53,082 nt of DNA from Kofleriaceae bacterium (GTDB lineage: Bacteria > Myxococcota_A > Polyangia > Haliangiales > Haliangiaceae), in contig JANTGM010000032.1 in the NCBI GenBank assembly GCA_024762925.1, positions 1 through 53,082 on the forward strand, read 5' to 3'. Both the position numbers and the translations under genes were made by a program. Position 1 is the first letter of the stretch; each line of letters starts with the position of its first letter. A model generated the notes under the pieces. That model was not told where the DNA came from. It was given only the letters and a program-made list of their open reading frames with translations, and searched no databases. Below, piece by piece: positions 15,120 through 21,614 of the stretch.

Positions 15120-15155
15120 AATGGCCCCTTCTCAATACTTTGAAGTCGGTCGCTC

Positions 15156-15186
15156 TGTAAACAGCGTGCACAGTGCACGTGTAAAC
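15156..15186. promoter_or_regulatory. Palindromic operator-like site
   Basis: CGTGCAC-A-GTGCACG (15165-15179) is a perfect 7-1-7 inverted repeat, framed by two direct copies of TGTAAAC (15156-15162 and 15180-15186). It sits 38 nt before the lipoprotein start, where a dimeric repressor or activator could bind. Confidence 0.45.
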
Positions 15187-15216
15187 CCCCTAAGAAGATT
15201 TTTGAGGAGTAAGAAT

Positions 15217-15489
15217 ATGACTTTCCTACGTACAGCAGTTCTTTCTATTGGAATGATGAGCCTTGTCGCCTGTGGCGGAAGCAGCGATAGTGGTTCAACC
15301 ACCCCTGCAGCAAACCCATGCGGTGAGAACCCATGTGGCGAAGAAGCAAACCCTTGTGGTGAGAACCCATGCGGTGAGAACCCATGTGGCGAAGAAGCAA
15401 ACCCTTGCGGTGAGAACCCATGCGGTGAGAACCCATGCGGCGAAGCAGCCAACCCTTGTGGTGGCGAAGCAGCCAACCCCTGCGGCTAA
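15217..15489 (+). CDS. Small Cys-rich NPCG-repeat lipoprotein
   Basis: A 90-aa protein with a signal peptide and lipobox SLVAC (lipidated C19), then a short Gly/Ser linker and ten copies of the tetrapeptide NPCG separated by E, EEA or GEA. Nothing else is present. The DNA is correspondingly repetitive. The start is well fixed by GAGGAG 8 nt before ATG 15217; the open frame upstream to 15121 is not translated-looking. Ten evenly spaced cysteines next to acidic residues suggest metal binding or redox buffering at the membrane surface; this is inference only. It has a palindromic operator-like site upstream and a strong terminator downstream, so it is a single-gene unit. Confidence 0.8.
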   Translation: MTFLRTAVLSIGMMSLVACGGSSDSGSTTPAANPCGENPCGEEANPCGENPCGENPCGEEANPCGENPCGENPCGEAANPCGGEAANPCG

Positions 15490-16731: not shown

Positions 16732-17385
16732 TTACTTGGGGTTCGCGACGCTTGCGGGAACCATGGCTTTGCGCGCAGCGATGGCACAGTTCTTAACCAT
16801 GGCCTCGTCATTCACACTGGGACCCGCCATCGCCTCTACCGTGCACTTGGTGTCTGGCTCGATGAATTTGTAGGTGTAAGAGTACTCCACGCCTTTCTCG
16901 GTGGCGCGCAGGCACGCAAAGCTACCTTCGATGGAGCTGCGCGAATTGCCGTCCTTTTCGCACTTGGCTTTGAACGTATCTTCATCGTTGGCAAGTGAGC
17001 AGTAGCCGCTGATCATGCAGTACTCATCGCCTGGCAAGACACCGAGCTTTGCGTATTTGTCTTCAAGCGTCTTCAGCTCTTTTGGAGACTCAGGGGGCTC
17101 GCCCGCCCGAATGAGTGAACACACAAATGTGGCTTCACTATTCGACTTGCCCTTGTCCACGATGGAGCCGATTTCGTCGCCCATCGCTTCCGTGAAGATC
17201 GCGGTGTCGGGAAAGACATCTTCACAGGCCAGGTGTTTGCCGTAGGGGACAGACGTGGTGAGCTTCGTTACGTTGCTCTTCTTCTTGGCTACCGGCTTCT
17301 CCGCCGGCTCCTCTCCCTCCAATTCCCCTTTGCAGGCAAAGGTGGAAACGAGCATCAGGCTTGCTGCGAGTAGTTGCGTTTTCAT
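16732..17385 (-). CDS. Hypothetical lipoprotein
   Basis: A 217-aa protein with a short signal peptide and lipobox cysteine C18 (STFAC), then a charged EGEEPAEKPVAKKK linker. About six cysteines are spread through the mature part, which suggests disulphides in the periplasm. I do not recognise a family. It is convergent with the Kelch gene and upstream of no co-directional partner; the protein at 17425-18159 reads towards it with a 39-bp gap, so the two may share a transcript. Confidence 0.7.
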   Translation of the reverse strand: MKTQLLAASLMLVSTFACKGELEGEEPAEKPVAKKKSNVTKLTTSVPYGKHLACEDVFPDTAIFTEAMGDEIGSIVDKGKSNSEATFVCSLIRAGEPPESPKELKTLEDKYAKLGVLPGDEYCMISGYCSLANDEDTFKAKCEKDGNSRSSIEGSFACLRATEKGVEYSYTYKFIEPDTKCTVEAMAGPSVNDEAMVKNCAIAARKAMVPASVANPK

Positions 17386-18927: not shown

Positions 18928-18975
18928 GGCGCGGAGTTTCAGGCGAGCTGTCCAATAGGGCAAATTTTTGCCGTC

Positions 18976-19072
18976 CTATCACGAGCACCTCACCGCCAGC
19001 GTTCTATCACGAGCACCTCACCGCCAGCGTTCTATCACGAGCACCTCACTGCCAGCGTCTTCTGCCAGCGTC
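18976..19072. repeat. 28-bp tandem direct repeats upstream of the barrel gene
   Basis: Three head-to-tail copies of a 28-bp unit beginning CTATCACGAGCACC and ending GCCAGCGT occur at 18976-19003, 19004-19031 and 19032-19059; the first two are identical and the third differs at two positions. A partial copy (TGCCAGCGTC) follows at 19063-19072. They could be iteron-like operator sites or a small variable-number repeat. Confidence 0.85.
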
Positions 19073-19123
19073 TTCCGAAACGTGCAAACGGTCTGCAATT
19101 TCTCGCGAGCCGAAAACACACTC

Positions 19124-20272
19124 GGCGGCCCTAGTGGGCCGCCTAACGAATCGGGGTTTCCCCTTCAAAGGTTTGAGACTTTGTACGAAGGAACAGTTTC
19201 GCTGTCGCCAGCGATCCAGCAGCCTCTTATGAGATTCGCTGCACTTCAGAGTTTTATGAACAGAGGGCTAGCAACCTATCCGGTTAGCTGCTCCCACCAT
19301 GACTTTCTTGTTTCCAAAAAGCCTTCGCGGTTTTTGCGTCTCTGTCGTCCCCTACTTCATTTGCAATCGATAGGTTCAGCCTCTCTTGCGCTTTCCGTTC
19401 TCTTTAGAGTTCGTTTCCGTTCAGAGCCCGTTGTGCATGCGGACATGCTCAACACCGTTCTTGAGGTTTCGTTCTCTATCGCGACATCCGCCCGAAGAAT
19501 CCACTAACAGCAAGCATCCGACGCTTTGCCTTCGTTCCACCCTCAGTGTTTCGCACACTCTCAGCGGTTTACTCCTCTTCCGACTTCCTGAGCTTATTTC
19601 ATCCCAGAGCCACGTTTGAGATTCGCTTTCCAAGGGTTTTCCCCACCATCAAGCCTCCACGACTCATCGCCGCTTCATGCCCTCTTTGTATTAGCGAAGT
19701 TCGTCTACTGTGAGACTGCCTTTGCAGACTGCCCACACAGCGCCAACTTTCCTCGCCGCACATTCAAGGCTTTGCTCCTGATAGCGATCCGTAACAACCA
19801 TCGATGGGGTTAGCACCGATACCGTCCGATCCCCTCCTAAGCTTCCAACTTCTCCAGGACTCACACCCTATGCCTTGGCTGCGCTTACACGCAGCCTCCA
19901 CTCATGTCCTTAGCTTCAAGGTCCTCACAGTGAACCTCGCCGCCGAACTTCAGCGTCTCATCAGCATCTGGCCCCTTGCTCTGTCCCCAGAACAAGCACC
20001 TGCTCAAGTCTTTCCTAACTGCCCTACAAACGCCGAAGCACTTGCAGAACGAGATACCCGATTCAATTGTCAAGCGACCCAAGAGAGCCGCCGAGCGATG
20101 GTGGGGACTAGTGCAGCTGGTGTGCCAGACTTGAGTTGTGCACAAGTAGGTGATTTTCTAAGATCCGGATTCTTAAGGGATTGTCGCCAATTTGAACAGG
20201 TCTGTGGACAAGCTATGGACAGAGTGTGTGACCTGAGAACCAAACTTCGAGTTCCCAATAGTTTGGGCGGCC
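19124..20272 (-). ncRNA. Candidate large structured noncoding RNA
   Basis: About 1.15 kb without a convincing gene: the frames here start without ribosome sites and read as low-complexity Ser/Arg/Pro. The minus strand is purine-rich and shows many local hairpins, several with classic RNA tetraloops: TCGCTG-GCGA-CAGCGA (19199-19214, GNRA loop), GCATG-TCCG-CATGC (19435-19448, UNCG loop), GGCTGCG/CGCAGCC (19877-19896), AGTGT/ACACT (19545-19559), a two-part stem at 19219-19242, GGGGAAACCCC (19153-19163) and a strong 8-bp stem at 19124-19143 near the 3' side. I find no group II intron domain V, RNase P, tmRNA or rRNA signature. Strand and ends are inferred, and transcription is not shown. Confidence 0.4.
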
Positions 20273-20293
20273 AGTGTCCAAACTTTGGACACT
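20273..20293. promoter_or_regulatory. Perfect 21-bp palindrome at the end of the HD hydrolase gene
   Basis: AGTGTCCAAA and TTTGGACACT flank one central base. It overlaps the stop codon of the minus-strand HD gene. In RNA it could form a 7-bp stem with an AAAGTTT loop, but no T-tract follows, so a protein-binding site or a processing hairpin is as likely as a terminator. Confidence 0.55.
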
Positions 20294-21614
20294 ATTCGGG
20301 AGTGTCGCGGGAGTGATCACGTAGCGATTCGGCGATGGGGCGAAGAGATCCCACAAGCTCGGGCGCGCAGACCAAGCGAACCGTCGAAACCGGGCGCCCT
20401 AAGGGGAGATCCTCCAGAAGTCGACCAAGTGTGACAGTGCCATAGCGTGGGTGGCCAACGACGTACAGCTCCTCGCCAGAGTGCGCGCTGTAGCCAATCT
20501 GCTCGGCGTTGTCCAAGTAGTAGTAGCTTGAGGCCGCATCACCAAAGGTGGATTCAGCGACTTGGTGGACCTCGCCACGTACCTGCTCAATGACGGATGG
20601 ATCATCGCCGAGGTCGAGAGTTTTGAACAGGCGGCGGCGCACCAGTCGATCGGCCAGATCGCGAATCACTGGGTCTTTGGCTGCGCCCAACGCACCATTT
20701 GCGCCAAGGCCAGCCCACCGGTCAATGGCGCTGTAGAGGGAGTAGTCCTCAAGGAAGAGGAATTCACTGGTGCTGAGGCGTTCGCCACGCGCGAGTTTCG
20801 CTGCCACTGCCAGCCCCTCGGGTTCCTCGCCATGGATTGCGAGCTCTGAGAAGCGACTCAGAAGTTTTATGAACATCCTTTCGGCGGCGCGAACCGCCTT
20901 GTGGTGATAGACCTGCGCATACATATACGTTCGTGCAAAGAGGTATTGCTCGACCGCGTACATTCCGCGGCGATAGTCGATTACGAGATCTTCTGGGTCG
21001 TCTCCTTTATGCACATCCTCGATGCGCAATGCGTGCAAGATCCACTCAAGATCATAGGTCGCGTAGCCCGCGCCCGAGTAGTGGCCATCACGCAAGAGAT
21101 AGTCGAGACGGTCGACGTCGAGTTGGGAGCTAACCAGCTTTCGCGCAAAGGTCGGCTTGTAGGTCTTGTTGGTAAATCTGCTGAGTGCCTCGGGAAGGTC
21201 TGGTGCAAGGCCGCGCAAAACCGCCGCCATTTCCTCGTCTTCGGTGATGATACGAGCGCCCCACTCTTCGTGGTCGAAGCTTGGAAAGACTTGCTCCCAG
21301 GTATGCGAGAACGGTCCATGACCAACATCGTGCAGGAGCGCTGCAGCTTTGACGTGCATGCGAACCGGCTCCTCAAGCCCGAGTCGCTCGACCACCAATG
21401 AGGCAACGTGGAAGGCTCCCAGAGCGTGACCAAAGCGTGAGTGTTCAGCACCCGAGTACACCTGCCATGCAAAGCCCATCTGCTTGACGCGACGCAATCG
21501 CTGAAAGGCACGGGTATCGAGAATGGCTGCTAACGGTCGGTTCTCACCAACAAACTCAATAAGTCCGTGAACAGGGTCTCGGAATACTCTATCGGCCAAG
21601 TTCGACTGGGGCAC
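20292..21614 (-). CDS. HD-superfamily phosphohydrolase (dGTPase/SAMHD1-like)
   Basis: A 440-aa cytoplasmic metal-dependent phosphohydrolase of the COG1078 type. The HD metal motif is complete: H in [14 protein letters not shown] in [14 protein letters not shown], and the later Asp in [20 protein letters not shown]. The start [38 protein letters not shown] is typical. Relatives hydrolyse dNTPs or have unknown substrates. The GTG start at 21614 is supported by GAGGTAGAG 7 nt upstream. Single gene, divergent from fdhD (97 bp). Confidence 0.9.

Follow-up and report, generated by a model that had tools for sequence, protein, structure and literature searches.

Homologous RNA domains repeated within one transcript are known from tandem riboswitch aptamers, such as those for glycine, which lie upstream of the genes that they regulate, and multiple copies of a motif in one non-coding RNA are typical of the sponge RNAs CsrB and RsmZ. 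OLE, GOLLD, ROOL, HEARO, RNase P, group II introns and tmRNA are all among the families of Rfam 15. Three large ornate bacterial RNAs (GOLLD, ROOL, and OLE) form homo-oligomers, and ROOL has been described from phages and prophages (PMC12286853); the GlmY small RNA is stated to have a sigma54 promoter (PMC6075780). The RNA described here, encoded in a Kofleriaceae genome, resembles GOLLD, ROOL, and OLE in being a stand-alone RNA of hundreds of nucleotides to about 1 kb, with an elaborate conserved structure and a poorly understood function; unlike them, it has no Rfam match, occurs in Myxococcota chromosomes and not in phage or viral records, and combines homologous modules, recurring 3x3 purine loops and, in one clade, a sigma54-type promoter. 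As in tandem riboswitch aptamers, homologous domains recur within one transcript, whereas this RNA is free-standing, has no fixed downstream gene, is larger, and carries a nested fifth module. With CsrB and RsmZ it shares a motif repeated many times in one non-coding RNA, but no CsrA gene was found, GGA and ANGGA are not enriched, and the conserved fold is long-range. Moreover, it recalls sigma54-dependent small RNAs (GlmY) as a predicted non-coding transcript with a promoter of the GG-N10-GC type and putative upstream activator sites, and differs from GlmY in its length of about 980 nt and in an upstream site resembling the genome's own presumed DnaA boxes.

Searches against known RNA families were uniformly negative. 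The window, that is, the whole 53,082-nt stretch of DNA that was analysed, gave no match to Rfam 15 (4227 families) at the gathering score, and no tRNA or tmRNA in a dedicated scan; the RNA region gave only two sub-threshold matches at E up to 10, and 16 homologue loci searched at E up to 1 yielded a flanking tRNA and two sub-threshold matches. This agrees with an earlier reading of the sequence alone (the sequence-only reading), which had recognised none of OLE, GOLLD, ROOL, RNase P, tmRNA or a group II intron domain V here; its comparison with OLE, GOLLD and ROOL holds for the kind (a large, ornate, stand-alone RNA) and not as homology. RNase P identity is excluded, since RNase P RNA normally has a single gene in each genome and a canonical one, the only RF00010 match in the genome, lies away from the RNA locus (G000:C2:124185-124556, 311 bits). 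A covarying structure of hundreds of nucleotides without an open reading frame (ORF), at a locus of its own, places the RNA among large ornate bacterial RNAs by kind and not by family. We know of no counterpart to its modular build. None of the open PMC papers retrieved describes such an RNA in Myxococcota in its title or abstract opening, and the passages of PMC11109978 that were consulted contain no mention of Myxococc.

The RNA and the elements at its ends are as follows:

19119..20101 (about 20101 to 19119 in the sense direction), minus strand: large structured RNA of ~983 nt, defined by alignments, fold, and covariation
20070..20096, minus strand: 5' arm of the closing stem P1 (helix 1, inverted repeat)
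19120..19146, minus strand: 3' arm of P1 (helix 1, inverted repeat), alternatively part of the terminator-like hairpin
19124..19143, minus strand: terminator-like hairpin GGCGGCCC-ACTA-GGGCCGCC followed by a short T run, from a terminator scan

The proposal that 19124-20272 holds a large structured RNA region of more than 1 kb was supported in its main claim by homologues, covariation, fold, and a non-coding signature; the RNA body was correctly placed, and the upper edge was not, as about 170 nt there are upstream regulatory DNA. The refined RNA runs from about 20101, a 5' end that we place provisionally from the -12 element of the promoter, to 19119, where P1 and the terminator-like hairpin have their base, and the promoter and upstream site reach to 20211. 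What that otherwise correct RNA call had overlooked were the precise ends, the repetition of modules inside the RNA, and the promoter of sigma54 type. As that reading had expected, the predicted fold of 19119-20101 on the minus strand is more stable than that of shuffled sequence: its energy of -368.9 kcal/mol compares with -329.0 on average in 20 dinucleotide shuffles, not one of which was as low (z -5.60), while the plus strand reached only z -1.57 and was equalled by two of 20 shuffles. Furthermore, G-U pairs outnumber A-C pairs by 665 to 149 in an alignment of 22 full-length copies, which fixes the sense strand, in agreement with the fold and with the strand originally favored. The window's genome carries a single copy.

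The individual hairpins singled out from the sequence fared differently. UCGCUG-GCGA-CAGCGA is present on the minus strand, in the predicted fold or directly readable, and its loop is GNRA in all 22 homologues, as one of a conserved set of GNRA loops, the prevailing loop type at several hairpins; the GGCUGCG...CGCAGCC stem was likewise found there. GCAUG-UCCG-CAUGC also exists on that strand, in a poorly conserved stretch, and consequently is no family feature. The final 8-bp GC hairpin, GGCGGCCC-ACUA-GGGCCGCC, is present and scores as a terminator, but both arms are also complementary to the 5' end, with which they form P1, and P1, rather than this hairpin, is the pairing that covaries (26 pairs, 18 with changes on both sides). 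In the terminator scan, two sites were found in the region against 1.7 expected, which by itself carries little weight, and since a run of at least six T follows the RNA in just seven of 50 loci, a classical terminator is not general; a distant homologue (L048) has a clear P1 and a T run, whereas local alignment in other distant homologues returned P1 arms that were too long and were discarded. Just downstream of the RNA 3' end, we observed a 28-bp tandem repeat (3.1 copies, 18972-19058) and a 13-bp repeat (19049-19075), and a different tandem repeat occupies the corresponding place 3' of the RNA in the homologous locus L012.

Homologues were recovered by blastn, by covariance model, and by pattern scan, as the sequence-only reading had anticipated for a genuine RNA. 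Against 95 relatives, blastn matched seven genomes, the window's own included: two congeneric species had full-length matches (81% and 77% identical), those in members of the family, order, and class covered the core only, one same-genus genome carried a second, diverged copy, and all eight copies could be aligned over their full length. A covariance model of the 178-nt core built from these eight (R1) was positive in at least 25 of 317 genomes of the class and in at least 60 of 377 of the phylum, with up to six matches per genome and seven genomes common to both lists; these counts are lower bounds because the best four to eight candidates were scored per genome, so that misses are no proof of absence. 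Moreover, a scan of one named genome per species (84,980 species) with a single exact pattern, which fits 34 of the 53 known cores, matched at least 31 DNA stretches, all scored by the refined model R2 (best matches 98 to 174 bits) and labeled as Myxococcales, Kofleriaceae, Myxococcota, Deltaproteobacteria, Proteobacteria or "uncultured" MAGs, with one cultured strain among them, Enhygromyxa salina SWB005. No match was obtained with the same exact pattern in viral contigs, nor by distant blastn among phages and plasmids. The distribution is patchy at the family level, many genomes lacking a match with eight candidates scored in each, and the RNA is consequently not universally needed. In one genome, two copies lie in the same direction about 1.76 kb apart (L025 and L039, at G139:C93:38076 and 39835).

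Comparative analysis of these loci revealed a conserved secondary structure. In the core alignment of 53 loci, which was fitted to R1, 96.4% of cells were paired and 40 of 43 pairs had changed on both sides; none of 500 shuffles reached any of these measures, and slid controls were 37-44% paired. For the 22 full-length copies aligned by sequence only (MAFFT), the RNAalifold structure comprised 282 pairs with 89.1% of cells paired and 206 pairs changed on both sides, which none of 500 shuffles equalled (slid controls, again 37-44%) and which bears out the covariation expected by the sequence-only reading. Compensatory cells numbered 1038 against 350 in shuffles; deriving the structure from its own alignment favors it somewhat, and the compensatory counts exceed such a bias. 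This alignment consisted of 21 loci picked by a promoter regex at the expected place and one added by position (L027), leaving out L040, which contains N runs, and the distant promoter-regex loci L044, L048, and L063; some variable regions were misplaced by MAFFT (e.g., columns 770-800 and 918-948), so that pair counts there are underestimated.

Within the closing stem, the RNA is divided into modules with a recurring internal loop:

19848..20009, minus strand: module D1 (helices 6-13; R2 matches near -375 from the core start)
19625..19842, minus strand: module D2 (helices 14-25; partial R2 matches near -150)
19473..19621, minus strand: module D3, the most conserved core (model R1; 53 sequences, 96.4% of cells paired)
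19160..19466, minus strand: module D4, carrying the nested fifth module (helices 33-49)
19241..19391, minus strand: nested module D4b within D4 (R2 matches at about +228, best E 5e-8), with end coordinates read off the consensus fold
19542..19562, minus strand: recurring 3x3 homopurine loop, D3 inner (GAG 19562-19560 / GAG 19544-19542), one of nine

When R2, rebuilt from the 53 cores, was run unfiltered over 24 of the 53 loci, it returned the 24 core matches and 48 further matches at E up to 1, the best of these at 5e-8. Among the latter, 43 were located within the RNAs already matched and in the same orientation, most of them near -375, -150, and +228 from the core start; of the others, two were in the upstream part of a second close copy and three outside. 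D1, D2, D3, and D4 share a common plan, in which an outer stem, a 3x3 loop, and a stem lead to a junction that bears a hairpin and a further stem; on the latter sit another hairpin and an inner stem, which contains the second of the 3x3 loops. The inner arm of D4 holds the further copy, D4b. The RNA thus consists of homologous three-way-junction modules, four in tandem and the fifth nested in the fourth, and from the shared plan and the secondary R2 matches we infer that they arose by repeated internal duplication. Each main module has one outer and one inner 3x3 purine loop (e.g., GAA/AAG, GAG/GAG, GGA/AAG, AAG/GAA, and ACG/GAA), and across the nine loops 372 of 388 cells have purine ends matched as A.A or G.G, whereas 1000 shuffles averaged 334 and never exceeded 350. 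Between species, a given loop may switch from G.G to A.A or back, which is a non-canonical form of covariation. Unpaired purines in D3 are highly conserved.

Upstream of the RNA, three elements were identified:

20112..20127, minus strand: sigma54-type promoter TGGCACACCAGCTGCA (GG-N10-GC), from alignment and regex
20136..20145, minus strand: second, palindromic site TTGTGCACAA beside the promoter, in the window and L012 only
20203..20211, minus strand: DnaA-box-like site TTGTCCACA, located 84 nt 5' of the promoter's -24 element

In the window's relatives, the promoter has the form TGGCAC-N6-TGCA. The regex TGG[CT]A[CT]-N5-8-[CT]GC[AT] matched between positions -432 and -540 relative to the core start in 24 of the 53 loci, leaving 29 without a sigma54-type promoter at the expected place, and six times elsewhere in the scanned upstream DNA, one of these matches being a more tightly spaced one at -425. 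Across the 22 aligned copies, GG and GC never vary, a figure that is partly selection because rows were chosen by the promoter regex, the unselected figure being 24 of 53. The window's genome encodes sigma54 (rpoN) and, together with GG-N10-GC at the 5' end of the RNA, this is the pattern of a putative sigma54-dependent unit; the motif strongly suggests that the RNA starts at a sigma54-type promoter in the window's relatives. The element is confined to part of the family; most distant loci are without it, a few of which show apparent sigma70-like hexamers on visual inspection.

The motif TTRTNCACA occurs within 200 bp upstream in 16 of 22 loci, at -83 or -84 in 12 of them, and is missing from that interval in six, against a background of 12 sites in 481,243 bp of surrounding DNA; these sites stem from related genomes and are not independent. 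The DNA just upstream of the genome's own dnaA contains boxes of this type, TTATCCACA once and TTTTCCACA twice, so the site at the RNA seems to resemble the presumed DnaA boxes of this genome. DnaA is an AAA+ ATPase, as are the usual sigma54 activators, and the conservative reading would be a dedicated enhancer-binding protein acting at TTRTNCACA. A composite promoter pattern, containing only the CACA end of the box, matched 21 times in the genome against seven for a reversed-pattern control, and among the matches listed no other gene looked convincing by eye, the RNA locus being the exception. Locus L026 has a CACAG/CACAA array with a spacing of about 11 bp (by eye) ahead of the promoter, which is reminiscent of head-to-tail DnaA box arrays.

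Rough gene calls in 41 extended loci placed the RNA between differing neighbors. The most frequent neighboring family, found in 10 loci, is a small lipoprotein-like protein (window 16732-17385) without a Pfam match, and its presence looks like synteny inside one family; the family of the adjoining HD-domain protein (20292-21614) was found in six. A fixed protein partner beside the RNA was rejected on this basis and, since no protein gene is common to most of the loci, the RNA most likely acts in trans. A perfect palindrome, TGTCCAAACTTTGGACA (20275-20291), lies in the gap that separates the RNA from the HD-domain gene; it is largely kept in two same-genus relatives and is possibly a regulator site. 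Farther away, at 15313-15463, a 51-bp tandem repeat in three copies would, as judged by eye, encode NPCGE-type cysteine repeats in a frame over 15121-15489.

Taken together, we consider it likely that the locus encodes a new class of stand-alone, trans-acting Myxococcota RNA, modular, started by sigma54 in the window's relatives, and serving as a multivalent scaffold. RNA polymerase with sigma54 would start at TGGCAC-N6-TGCA in these relatives, under the control of an activator bound about 84 nt upstream at TTRTNCACA; P1 would join the two ends of the resulting transcript (about 980 nt), which would fold into D1, D2, D3, and D4, with D4b nested in D4, and whose loop-and-junction units would dock one partner repeatedly, be it several molecules of a protein or other segments of its own or adjacent RNA chains. 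With several copies of one docking unit in a stand-alone trans RNA, a multivalent structural scaffold, working alone or with protein, is the best explanation and the most likely one, and it is repetition that suggests it; catalytic RNAs can be modular too.

A variant that overlaps with the scaffold, and that we regard as possible rather than probable, is an RNA-only homo-oligomer in the manner of GOLLD, ROOL or OLE, with the repeats as inter-chain contacts. Such behavior in three other large ornate bacterial RNAs lends it credit (PMC12286853), and repeated loops and GNRA tetraloops could be contact sites; nevertheless, no covariance model of any Rfam family matched, phage and viral contigs gave no match whereas ROOL comes from phages and prophages (same source), and internal repeats could instead give pseudo-symmetry in one chain. 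A little less credible is a large ribozyme, in which D3 would form or support the active site and the repeats would be structural props. The size, the end-to-end closure, the conserved unpaired purines of D3, and the GNRA loops typify large catalytic RNAs, but nothing matched RNase P, group I, group II or other Rfam families, a canonical RNase P RNA is encoded elsewhere in the genome, and homologous modules repeat the same loops instead of forming one unique center.

The remaining explanations carry very little weight. The 32 GGA triplets and repeated motifs might recall a sponge that titrates a regulator, like CsrB or RsmZ, yet this is hardly tenable, as GGA is barely above shuffle (32 versus 28), ANGGA lies below it (4 versus 7.4), and the structure is long-range and ornate; a CsrA sponge in particular was rejected, with no CsrA match in the window's own genome, and a sponge for another protein falls under the scaffold. 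Equally improbable is a mobile element, either a decayed intron or a transposon with terminal inverted repeats: 27-nt inverted arms at the ends, several copies in some genomes (two of them close together in G139), and variable neighbors would fit, but a single copy in the window's genome and the lack of a shared protein inside make it unlikely, while covariation marks the paired ends as an RNA stem, the distance from the arms to the promoter outside them is constant, and no intron matched in Rfam. Least plausible of all, to the point of being negligible, is a protein-coding locus, whether a decayed gene or one read from the opposite strand. Homologues do contain antisense ORFs (46-272 aa), with similar ones in four loci, but their positions and lengths vary, and the compensatory changes and G-U bias require an RNA. 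On the sense strand, the longest ORF in the window RNA has 70 aa, and those of the 22 copies range from 53 to 248 aa with scattered starts; mismatches between the window and L012 fall 56/58/53 over the codon positions, i.e., without codon periodicity, and indels measure 1, 13, 1, and 1, mostly single bases. A decayed coding gene was therefore rejected, and the earlier statement that the stretch holds no credible gene was upheld.

Returning to the scaffold, we also entertain a bolder, doubtful proposal of a replication-linked RNA machine, in which DnaA, or an enhancer-binding protein using the same box, would activate the sigma54 promoter, and the duplicated-module RNA would form a pseudo-symmetric particle, alone or with one repeated protein.

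Myxococcota are known for predation and development, known large structured RNAs have led to unexpected biology and to RNA-only assemblies, and, to our knowledge, RNAs of about 1 kb with comparable conserved structure are few. In this context, an RNA common to many myxobacteria suggests that an RNA-built cellular machine or scaffold has so far escaped notice. It is widespread in the phylum and has at least one cultured carrier, its modular build eases experiment, and its recurring 3x3 loop, in which A.A or G.G pairs are matched, offers a concrete target for structure determination. If confirmed, the pairing of a DnaA-like box with the sigma54-type promoter would link sigma54 transcription to the control of replication.
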